A stretch of 33,865 nt of DNA from Anaerolineae bacterium (GTDB taxonomy: Bacteria; Chloroflexota; Anaerolineae; Aggregatilineales; Phototrophicaceae). The translations under genes and the position numbers were made by a program. The notes beneath the pieces are model-generated. The model had not been told where the DNA came from and ran no database searches. It saw only the letters and a list, made by a program, of their open reading frames with translations. Within the stretch, counting starts at the first letter, position 1, and the number at the start of each line of letters is the position of its first letter. Location: NCBI GenBank assembly GCA_030950085.1, contig JAUZRW010000176.1, forward strand, positions 1 through 33,865, written 5' to 3'. Below are positions 24,775 to 27,403 of this stretch, piece after piece.

Positions 24775-25896
24775 ATGAAAATCGAAACAGAGGCGATTCA
24801 CAGTGGCTATGATGTTGATTCGGCAACCGGAGCATTGACCGCGCCGATTCATCTCAGTACAACATTTGAGCGCGATGCCGATGGCGAATACTCGCGTGAC
24901 TATGTTTATACGCGCAGTGAAAACCCCAATCGTAGCGAGCTAGAATCGCGTCTGACAACACTTGAAAATGGCTTTGAAACAGCCGCTTTTGCATCGGGTT
25001 CAGTCGCAATGATGAGTATTTTACAAGCACTACAAACTGGTGACCATATTCTCGCACCGGATAACCTCTATTTTGGCATCAAAGTCATCATGACCGATAT
25101 TTTTGCAGCGTGGGGATTAGAAACTGTCTTTGTCGATATGACAAACCTCGATACTGTGAAAGCGGCAATGAAGGCAAATACACGGCTGGTCATTATCGAA
25201 ACTCCTTCTAACCCTCTGATTAAAGTCACGGATATTCAGGCAGTGGCGAATATTGCCCATGATAATGATGCCTATCTGGTCTGTGATAATACCATCCCGA
25301 CACCTGTTTTTCAGAAACCGCTTGAACTTGGTGCTGATTTTGTCGTTCATGCCACCACTAAGTATATCGCCGGACATAGTGATGCACTCGGCGGTGCAGT
25401 CATCGCCAAAGAAGAGTGTGCTTTATGGCAACGGCTACGGGTGATTCAAAAAGTCGGTGGGGCTGTGCCTTCGCCATTCGATTGCTGGTTGATTTTGCGC
25501 GGCTTACAAACCTTGCCCATCCGTGCCAAAGCCCATGCTGAAAATGCTCTAACAGTCGCCCATTTTCTGGAAAATCACTCGAAAGTAGAAGCTGTTCTCT
25601 ATGCCGGACTGGAATCGCACGCACAACATACTATCGCTAAAAAGCAAATGACAGGCTTCGGCGGCTTGCTCTCATTTTTGGTGCAAGGTGGGCAAAATAA
25701 AGCGATGGCTATGACCACTCATCTGCATCTGATTAAACGCGCCACGAGTTTCGGCGGTACACATTCCACGATTGAACATCGCGCCTCAGTTGAACAAGGC
25801 ACAAGCACGCCTCAAAATCTGCTGCGGCTATCAGTTGGCATTGAACACAGCGACGATATTATTGCTGATTTAGCACAGGCACTCGACGCGATTTAG
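24775..25896 (+). CDS. PLP-dependent trans-sulfuration enzyme (Cys/Met metabolism)
   Basis: 373 residues from the ATG behind CGGAGA; an ATG 17 codons earlier has no ribosome-binding site. It is a Cys/Met-metabolism PLP enzyme (cystathionine gamma-synthase / beta- or gamma-lyase type): YTRSENPNRSELESRL at about 46-61, the ETPSNPLIKV segment, VCDNTIPTPVFQ with the PLP-contacting Asp, and the Schiff-base lysine K196 in HATTKYIAGHSD. The C-terminal SFGGTHSTIEHR and LLRLSVGIEHSDDIIADL complete it. Length fits the family. The exact reaction (synthase or lyase) cannot be read from sequence. It acts in the cytoplasm in methionine/cysteine supply. Confidence 0.92.
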   Translation: MKIETEAIHSGYDVDSATGALTAPIHLSTTFERDADGEYSRDYVYTRSENPNRSELESRLTTLENGFETAAFASGSVAMMSILQALQTGDHILAPDNLYFGIKVIMTDIFAAWGLETVFVDMTNLDTVKAAMKANTRLVIIETPSNPLIKVTDIQAVANIAHDNDAYLVCDNTIPTPVFQKPLELGADFVVHATTKYIAGHSDALGGAVIAKEECALWQRLRVIQKVGGAVPSPFDCWLILRGLQTLPIRAKAHAENALTVAHFLENHSKVEAVLYAGLESHAQHTIAKKQMTGFGGLLSFLVQGGQNKAMAMTTHLHLIKRATSFGGTHSTIEHRASVEQGTSTPQNLLRLSVGIEHSDDIIADLAQALDAI

Positions 25897-25950
25897 AGCA
25901 TTTTTTTGTTAGACAGCATCGCGTCCGAAGTATTTTTCACTGTTCAAAAA

Positions 25951-26011
25951 AAGCGTAACACGGAGAATCAGAGGCGCAGAGTATCATTTTGAATTAGGGT
26001 TTTGTGTTCTT
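25951..26011. repeat. Family B repeat, copy 4
   Basis: aagcgtaacacggagaatca, then gaggcgcagag, and at the far end ttttgtgttctta: a shortened version of the copy at 28055-28143, with the same imperfect inverted layout (cagag on one side, ctgtgtt-like on the other). Confidence 0.55.
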
Positions 26012-26065
26012 ATGAGACTTTGAGGGTCAAATGTATTCGAGTGCATTTCAAAGTTTTGGCGAAGT

Positions 26066-26089
26066 GGGTTTAGCACGCTAAACCCCTAC
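26066..26089 (+). repeat. Family A palindrome, copy 6
   Basis: GGGTTTAG, loop CACG, CTAAACCC, then CTAC: a perfect 8-bp stem, CTAC-last orientation. Confidence 0.7.
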
Positions 26090-26110
26090 GATAAGCAATG
26101 TATTTTGAGC

Positions 26111-26134
26111 GTAGGGGCAAGATGTATCTTGTCC
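26111..26134 (+). repeat. Family A palindrome, copy 7
   Basis: GTAG then GGGCAAGA, loop TGTA, TCTTGTCC (one G-T pair), GTAG-first orientation. Its outer bases and loop equal those of the 20979-21002 copy while the stem interior differs (CAAGA instead of CATGA) with a matching change opposite. Confidence 0.7.
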
Positions 26135-26185
26135 AGTTGAGCGTGTGACACTTTTCTGAAATCTACGCAATCTTTTTCGGTTTGA

Positions 26186-26214
26186 TTGACCGCGCTATCA
26201 TTTTGCTGTACAAT
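26186..26214 (+). promoter_or_regulatory. Sigma-70-type promoter of the DUF6891 unit
   Basis: TTGACC (26186-26191), a 17-nt spacer, and TACAAT (26209-26214). This is the best-formed promoter in the window. The predicted start of transcription, near 26221, falls inside the palindrome at 26217-26228. Confidence 0.7.
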
Positions 26215-26216
26215 AA

Positions 26217-26228
26217 GAACATATGTTC
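26217..26228. promoter_or_regulatory. LexA/SOS-box-like operator
   Basis: GAACATATGTTC is a perfect 12-bp palindrome matching the Gram-positive-type LexA (DinR) consensus GAAC-N4-GTTC. It overlaps the predicted transcription start, a position expected for repression. Whether this organism's LexA uses this site type is not known from the window. Confidence 0.55.
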
Positions 26229-26251
26229 AAAATGAGAAAAGGAGACATTTT

Positions 26252-26431
26252 ATGGATGAGATGCACAGCCAACTGCACGATTTCATCAACACACAAATCA
26301 AAGTGGGATTCAAACCTCGTGAGGCTATTATTGAAGCGGCTGTTGACACTCTGCGTAATGATTGCGGCGGTTTTCTGGTGCGACAAGAAGCGGCAAAAAT
26401 CGTCGATAAATTGCTGATGGAGCATGTATGA
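26252..26431 (+). CDS. DUF6891-type protein, N-terminal half (separate frame)
   Basis: 59 residues (MDEMHSQLHDFINTQIKVGF, PREAIIEAAVDTLRND, AAKIVDKLLMEHV). The ATG follows AAGGAG. The composition fits the helical N-terminal part found in front of the DUF6891 core in related proteins, as I remember them, and the next frame continues with the core. It overlaps the second gene by eight bases (ATGTATGA). Either this is a natural two-gene, coupled arrangement or a frameshift of an originally single gene. It is probably under the SOS-like operator upstream. Confidence 0.7.
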   Translation: MDEMHSQLHDFINTQIKVGFKPREAIIEAAVDTLRNDCGGFLVRQEAAKIVDKLLMEHV

Positions 26432-26843
26432 GGCTCAAAAAACGTGGACACACGAAACCGATTGCGACAAATTAGATGAGGTATTTGCTGAACTAGACCG
26501 TCAGGGTATTGTAGCGCGACAAAACTTCACCTGCTGCCAAACCTGCGGACATACTGAAATTGGCTATGAAATTGATGATGCCATGGAATATCGTGTGGTA
26601 CGCGGCTATGTCTTTTTTCATCAACAAGATACTGAGCATGTCATCGCAACCGACAAACTCTATCTCGCTTATGGTTCTGTCGATGGCAAAGAAGAAGATT
26701 CGGTTGACATCGGTTATGAAGTGCTTGCCGCATTGCGACGGGCGAGATTATCGGTGGACTGGAACGGCATGATTCACAAGCGCATTTGTATTCAGGATAT
26801 TCAGTGGCAACGGCGGCGTTTACCAGAAGCCATCCTCGAATAA
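26424..26843 (+). CDS. DUF6891 domain protein (C-terminal core)
   Basis: 139 residues. Characteristic stretches are TWTHETDCDKLDEVFAELDR, then GIVARQNFTCCQTCGHTEIG with a CxxC-like cysteine cluster (C38-C-x-x-C), GYVFFHQQDTEHVIATDKLY and LYLAYGSVDGKEEDS. It ends with a Trp/Arg-containing helix (LSVDWNGMIHKRICI). The function is unknown. The start ATG lies inside the end of the preceding gene. A good bidirectional terminator follows. Confidence 0.78.
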   Translation: MYEAQKTWTHETDCDKLDEVFAELDRQGIVARQNFTCCQTCGHTEIGYEIDDAMEYRVVRGYVFFHQQDTEHVIATDKLYLAYGSVDGKEEDSVDIGYEVLAALRRARLSVDWNGMIHKRICIQDIQWQRRRLPEAILE

Positions 26844-26848
26844 ATACA

Positions 26849-26882
26849 AAAAGTGGGATGTTGACTATCGCATCCCATTTTT
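26849..26882. terminator. Bidirectional intrinsic terminator
   Basis: AAAAAGTGGGATG, 10-nt loop, CATCCCATTTTT. It serves the convergent DUF6891 gene (plus) and the membrane protein gene (minus); its outer edge touches the latter's stop codon. Confidence 0.8.
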
Positions 26883-27403
26883 CATGATTCCATCACCTCT
26901 ACTGATAAAACGACTTTTGAACGCGGTAAATAGTAGATAATATGTGGTTCAAGGTGTTTGATGCGAATAATCGCTTTTTGTGGAGCGTTAAACCTTATAT
27001 TGTTAACTGACAGCGAATACGTTTCACCAGATTTGACGACAGCCAAACCTTGCATCGCTTCAACATGACCATCCTTCACATCATTGCCAAATCTCCCGAC
27101 TATCATCACGACTATCAATTCAATCAGGAGACCAACAGTAAAAGTTAGTGCAGGCGGGATAGAATTGCCCGTGACACCCTCACGGAGAAAGACATTCACA
27201 GTATAAATCCCCAGAACCAACAAAAAAATAGCACCCAAAACAATAAATATTATCCGCCTTCTGACGCGCTTTTGCAGGTTCAGTTTTTGCTCTGGTGTGA
27301 TACGCCCTTCGCGGTTGGCGGTGATATCATCCTCTGTGATATTCAAAGCCTCCATCAGTTCTTCTTGACGTGTGAGGGACTTGTTTTTAATTTTTTCGGA
27401 CAT
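26882..27403 (-). CDS. Two-helix membrane protein with ANREGR motif (paralog 1)
   Basis: 173 residues of unknown family. A cytoplasmic N-terminus contains NITEDDITANREGRITPEQ (about 21-39). Two hydrophobic helices follow (about 50-72 and 85-104). The C-terminal part is a small beta-rich domain (GETYSLSVNNIRFNAPQKAI) ending in HIIYYLPRSKVVLSVEVME. The upstream neighbour at 27473-27991 has the same plan, so these are tandem paralogs. CGGAG lies seven bases before the ATG. Such a design suggests a membrane protein with a soluble sensor-like tail, but no function can be assigned. Confidence 0.75.
   Translation of the reverse strand: MSEKIKNKSLTRQEELMEALNITEDDITANREGRITPEQKLNLQKRVRRRIIFIVLGAIFLLVLGIYTVNVFLREGVTGNSIPPALTFTVGLLIELIVVMIVGRFGNDVKDGHVEAMQGLAVVKSGETYSLSVNNIRFNAPQKAIIRIKHLEPHIIYYLPRSKVVLSVEVMES

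Follow-up and report, generated by a model that had tools for sequence, protein, structure and literature searches.

We found that the palindrome GAACATATGTTC, located in the window (the whole stretch of 33,865 nucleotides that was analysed), is very probably the LexA operator of a two-ORF unit encoding DUF6891, as judged from its sequence and setting. The first-pass annotation had proposed that an SOS operator covers the transcription start, and this proposal is supported by the LexA motif of the genome, the score of the site on a matrix of LexA boxes and the geometry of the promoter. The features of the region are as follows:

26186-26191, plus strand: -35 hexamer TTGACC, a consensus match and not a start codon.
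26209-26214, plus strand: -10 hexamer TACAAT, with a 17-bp spacer to the -35 hexamer.
26209-26231, plus strand: 23-base element TAYAATAAGAACRTATGTTCAAA, common to the promoter of a DinB-superfamily gene (L024 1993-2015).
26217-26228, no strand assigned: putative LexA operator (SOS box) GAACATATGTTC, from the motif match and a matrix score of 17.64 bits.
26252-26431, plus strand: ORF1, 59 aa, N-terminal DUF6891 part (profile 2-57 of 189; 20.2 bits against a cut-off of 27).
26424-26843, plus strand: ORF2, 139 aa, C-terminal DUF6891 part (profile 59-189; E 2.2e-52, 178.2 bits).

The GAAC-N4-GTTC palindrome described by the first-pass annotation is indeed present at 26217-26228 with both half-sites perfect, and it is the sole GAACN4GTTC of the 34-kb window. 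Its reported position just past TTGACC-17-TACAAT was confirmed: the site begins 2 nt past the -10 hexamer, would cover the predicted +1, and ends 23 bp ahead of the probable start codon ATG 26252. The promoter search of 25850-26900 gave three matches (1.9 expected from shuffles), and TTGACC-17-TACAAT was the top one with 10 of 12 positions; being a consensus match, it says nothing on promoter use. ATG 26252 is a likelier start than TTG 26186, because that TTG belongs to the -35 hexamer and AAAAGGAG precedes ATG 26252. The ORF originally drawn at 26186-26431 opens with this TTG of the -35 hexamer, and the accompanying remark that the palindrome sits "seven bases after the start codon-ward" matches nothing in the sequence. 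Rfam gave no match in 25900-26900. A reading of the GAACATATGTTC palindrome as an RNA hairpin was also considered but not taken up.

A profile search with PF01726 gave one strong match in this genome, on C105; the protein has 232 aa and combines LexA_DNA_bind with Peptidase_S24. Two weaker matches were found, one above the cut-off on C161, where the frame has 90 codons, and one below it on C261. The Ser (GESM) and Lys (TLKY) motifs of self-cleavage are present in this LexA. The textbook scissile pair of LexA is Ala-Gly; the pair in this protein (L014 306-1004, minus strand) is Ala-Ser, and reading by eye of 29 LexA proteins (this one and those of loci L047-L075) gave Ala-Ser in 17 and Ala-Gly in 12. 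The promoter of lexA itself reads TTGACA-cac-GAACTTACGTTC-gt-TATACT, with a perfect GAAC-N4-GTTC between the -35 and -10 hexamers, 71 bp upstream of the lexA ATG, and a second site, GAACAAGTATTC, lies behind GAACTTACGTTC. Upstream of recA we found GAACTTTTGTGC, which has one mismatch and GTGC as its second half-site; by eye it lies in the spacer of a TTGCAT-17-TATCCT promoter, and the promoter script failed to find a good one upstream of recA, FHA or uvrB.

The same motif was seen across the family. Within 350 bp upstream of the lexA-type genes, all 30 loci (the best 30 of 39 genomes with matches, this genome included, one of them, G023, L060, not a full LexA) carry a site within one mismatch, 19 perfect and 11 with one mismatch, and by eye most of these boxes lie between TTGACA and the -10. 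For recA, over the same distance, 24 of the 30 regions (the best 30 of 35 genomes with matches, again with this genome) have such a site, 2 perfect and 22 with one mismatch, mostly as GAACN4GTGC. Because the upstream regions of lexA and recA in this genome and in the family carry it, the LexA motif of this lineage, as read from these sequences, is GAACN4GTTC, with GTGC in recA. The first-pass annotation had held that a different motif at lexA and recA would speak against its reading; the genome's own GAACTTACGTTC and GAACTTTTGTGC and the boxes of relatives agree with the palindrome.

The number of sites alone proves nothing, because a mean of 0.39 GAACN4GTTC is expected per window (at least one site in 32 of 100 shuffles) and the genome holds 36 perfect sites against 53 of a reversed control pattern; location and quality carry the case. 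With gene calls from our own codon-usage script rather than a published gene finder, 10 of the 36 perfect sites lie between genes, at most 200 bp upstream of one, compared to 3 of the 50 control sites taken in out of the 53 (Fisher p = 0.0066), and 22 of the 36 lie in coding sequence. Nine perfect sites fall within 100 bp upstream of genes; at the control rate (2/50), the number would be about 1.4. In the 100 bp upstream of 136 control-locus genes, no perfect box was found (0/136), and five genes had a site within one mismatch. In L005, a 639-codon frame holds two perfect GAACN4GTTC at its 3' end (1953 and 2103), 150 bp apart, and no gene was called in the 200 bp downstream.

Pfam assigned the genes behind the ten intergenic upstream sites to uvrB, lexA, ligA, DinB_2, glyoxalase, FHA, SLT, YCII, Uma2 and DUF6891. 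Classical repair genes are only some of the ten; at the Uma2 site, the gene is divergent with another gene that has no Pfam match. The uvrB, ligA and DinB-superfamily genes have a perfect GAACN4GTTC just upstream. The results showed that the DinB_2 promoter TATAATAAGAACGTATGTTCAAA and the window sequence TACAATAAGAACATATGTTCAAA differ at two positions over 23 bases, and among 175 loci this 23-base element was found only in L024 and in two copies of the window region (L039, L043). In the DUF6891 and DinB_2 promoters the box stands directly behind the -10 hexamer, and in those of lexA, ligA, SLT and YCII between the -35 and -10; either placement would be expected to block the polymerase. Similar stretches (GCGTAAC...GGCGCAGAGTA) were noticed by eye ahead of both promoters, at about 25950-26140 of the window and upstream of 2001 in L024, and may be an interspersed repeat. 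The glyoxalase-like gene (L007, about 2001-2090) has, besides its perfect LexA box, two more GAACN4GTTT sites upstream, a possible triple operator.

To score the window site, we built a matrix from 46 lexA and recA boxes of relatives (26 lexA, 20 recA), with this genome excluded. Three of the 29 lexA loci of relatives were omitted, G011 with two one-mismatch sites and no clear first box, and G035 and G018 with a core identical to that of G064; three of the 23 recA loci within one mismatch (G019, G011, G015) were omitted because their sites were out of position. The matrix takes in no second lexA boxes, and one of its rows (G023, L060) comes from a gene that does not encode a full LexA. On this matrix GAACATATGTTC scores 17.64 bits, compared to a training median of 15.36, and leads the next best site in the window (11.3 bits) by 6 bits. 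Across 50 control loci from this genome (180,033 positions), the highest score was 13.63 bits, and none reached 17.64. Among 37 sites of this genome (the 36 perfect ones and that of recA), GAACATATGTTC ranks fourth, behind L018 (upstream of the SLT transglycosylase), L021 (in a coding frame) and L007 (upstream of the glyoxalase-like gene). At a threshold chosen after seeing the list, 11 of the 15 perfect sites with at least 14.6 bits are non-coding, compared to 3 of the 21 below it (Fisher p = 0.0005). The other four of the 15 lie inside coding frames (L021, L036, L005 at 1953, and L016), which means that sequence alone also gives silent or false sites.

DUF6891 is sporadic, being found in 5 of 154 genomes of the order and in 4 of 396 genomes of a class sample, three of which were already among the order's five, and because it is rare the footprinting is thin. 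The 61 relatives and the 41 family genomes sampled are all of other genera, so that they give no close footprint. We compared the upstream regions of 14 other DUF6891 loci: G025, G037, G049, G146, G504, three Obscuribacterales, five actinobacterial plasmid loci (five of the seven plasmid records) and one phage (one of three records). Within the family, DUF6891 was found in just one other genome, G025, where the one-mismatch GAACACATTTTC (12.68 bits) lies 51 bp ahead of the start, in the 17-bp spacer between TGGACA and TATGAT, an arrangement as in lexA promoters; the variant is of the type found in second lexA boxes. Of 126 control genes, one reaches 12.68 bits in its 250-bp upstream region, and the lexA box of G025 is itself one of the 46 training boxes.

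For the other 13 loci, the best scores in 250 bp upstream ranged from -2.35 to 6.24 bits (control genes: median 1.93, 95th percentile 6.72 bits). They were -2.35 in G037, 0.82 in G049, -0.51 in G504, 3.3, 4.46 and 2.92 in the Obscuribacterales, -1.33 in the Bacillus phage and at most 6.24 in the five actinobacterial loci; G146 gave 4.78 bits for the one-mismatch GATCTGCCGTTC, which stands 109 bp ahead of the ATG used. The lexA boxes of G037 and G049 are perfect and that of G146 has one mismatch, though their DUF6891 genes have no box. The DUF6891 gene of G049 starts about 10 bases after another ORF and may be in an operon. As to the conservation before orthologs that the first-pass annotation asked for, the one other family member (G025) shows a box-like site with one mismatch, and the 13 loci outside the family, among them the four genomes of the order and class (G037, G049, G146 and G504), show none. 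Because no box-like site precedes the DUF6891 loci examined outside the family, these sequences suggest that LexA control of DUF6891 is at most a family-level trait. This poor conservation limits the generality of the control, not the status of GAACATATGTTC as a LexA box.

In this assembly, the gene behind the probable operator is split in two. With a Pfam gathering cut-off of 27 bits for DUF6891 (PF21831), ORF2 passes and ORF1 alone fails, and the two ORFs overlap by the 8 bases ATGTATGA (window 26424-26431). In seven other aligned orthologs and G504, DUF6891 is a single ORF of about 185-205 codons depending on the start; in Streptomyces and Embleya there are three longer proteins with an extra N-terminal part. 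The Bacillus phage vB_BcoS-136 (L174 2492-2854) has a 120-codon ORF that resembles the C-terminal part alone, with 34% identity to ORF2. A conserved NFTCCQTCGH stretch lies in the alpha/beta part of DUF6891 and is missing in G025. For the G037 ortholog (185 aa), AlphaFold2 gave a model with a mean pLDDT of 91.5, in which N-terminal helices are followed by the alpha/beta part. Searches with this model gave no Foldseek match at E <= 0.001 and no VIA-align Z >= 8 (best 6.5, on the N-terminal helices), and its sequence had no PDB match. ORF1 and ORF2 had no match at E 0.1 in NCBIfam, PADLOC or PHROGs, and the G037 ortholog had only marginal matches (NCBIfam 0.092, PHROGs 0.047).

We weighed the LexA-operator reading of GAACATATGTTC against a chance GAACN4GTTC that lies unused beside a promoter. 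The 0.39 sites expected per window, the 22 of 36 genomic sites in coding sequence and the poor conservation before distant DUF6891 orthologs all speak for chance, which we nevertheless consider unlikely, since the site stands directly behind a 10-of-12 promoter match, its 17.64 bits are unreached by any control position, its geometry is common to the DinB_2 promoter, and a box-like site is found at the other family ortholog in G025. That another repressor with a similar palindrome, such as a local HTH regulator, uses the site is less probable still, and we give it very little weight: 12-bp palindromes of such shape fit many HTH dimers as a matter of general knowledge, but Pfam found no DNA-binding domain in six proteins scanned around the site, and the same motif stands at lexA, recA, uvrB and ligA.

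A further alternative concerns the gene and is compatible with the LexA-operator reading of GAACATATGTTC: the box may be a true one standing before a decayed gene, with the DUF6891 frame broken, or an assembly error may mimic the break. We regard this as a considerable possibility, although one we do not favour. The gene is one uninterrupted ORF in the 5 other class genomes in which it was found and in the 3 Obscuribacterales, and ORF1 and ORF2 abut on the profile at 57/59; yet ORF2 retains the conserved residues, its own ATG overlaps the ORF1 stop as in coupled genes, and the phage encodes the C-terminal part alone. If the gene were broken, the operator could be a relic. It is conceivable, though rather doubtful, that DUF6891 is in this lineage an unrecognised SOS effector family, made only upon damage, whose helical N-terminal module and C-terminal module work here as separate, translationally coupled proteins.

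The LexA/RecA mechanism is established in other bacteria. If GAACATATGTTC is the LexA operator of the DUF6891 unit, a LexA dimer in the undamaged cell would occupy 26217-26228, covering the transcription start immediately past the -10 hexamer, and would block RNA polymerase at the TTGACC/TACAAT promoter. DNA damage would activate RecA, upon which LexA would cleave itself, and the two-ORF DUF6891 unit would then be transcribed with lexA, recA, uvrB, ligA and the DinB-superfamily gene. LexA binding, repression and damage induction at the DUF6891 unit are what we infer from this arrangement.

The dinB gene is reportedly damage-inducible in B. subtilis. Compared to SOS-controlled genes of the DinB superfamily, the DinB_2 gene of this genome shares its -10/operator arrangement with the DUF6891 unit, whereas DUF6891 has no Pfam match to DinB_2. 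According to PMC3323433, GAAC-N4-GTTC is the LexA motif of B. subtilis and, by extension, of Gram-positive bacteria. The core is the same here, with both half-sites perfect, and is present at lexA and over promoters; the differences are that the second half-site at recA is GTGC and that the controlled gene is an uncharacterised DUF. In Streptomyces venezuelae, the LexA operators are described as tCGAAC-N4-GNNCGa, and many targets have no known function (PMC9380542). The operator type and the targets of unknown function resemble those found here; the main text of PMC9380542 never uses the term DUF, and the five actinobacterial plasmid DUF6891 loci score at most 6.24 bits upstream.

The operator is ordinary in kind, and its DUF6891 target is new. 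No LexA regulon study for Chloroflexota, the phylum to which the proteins seem to point, and nothing on DUF6891 or PF21831 was found in the open-licence papers searched, and the earlier statement that damage control of a DUF6891 gene had not been described agrees with the lack of any such report there. The LexA motif of this lineage is now defined as GAACN4GTTC, with GTGC at recA. Because the gene shares a predicted set with repair genes, a role of DUF6891 in DNA repair or damage tolerance is our working guess. The site groups the DUF6891 family with lexA, recA, uvrB and ligA as genes predicted to be damage-inducible, and this placement is the only functional lead found for DUF6891.
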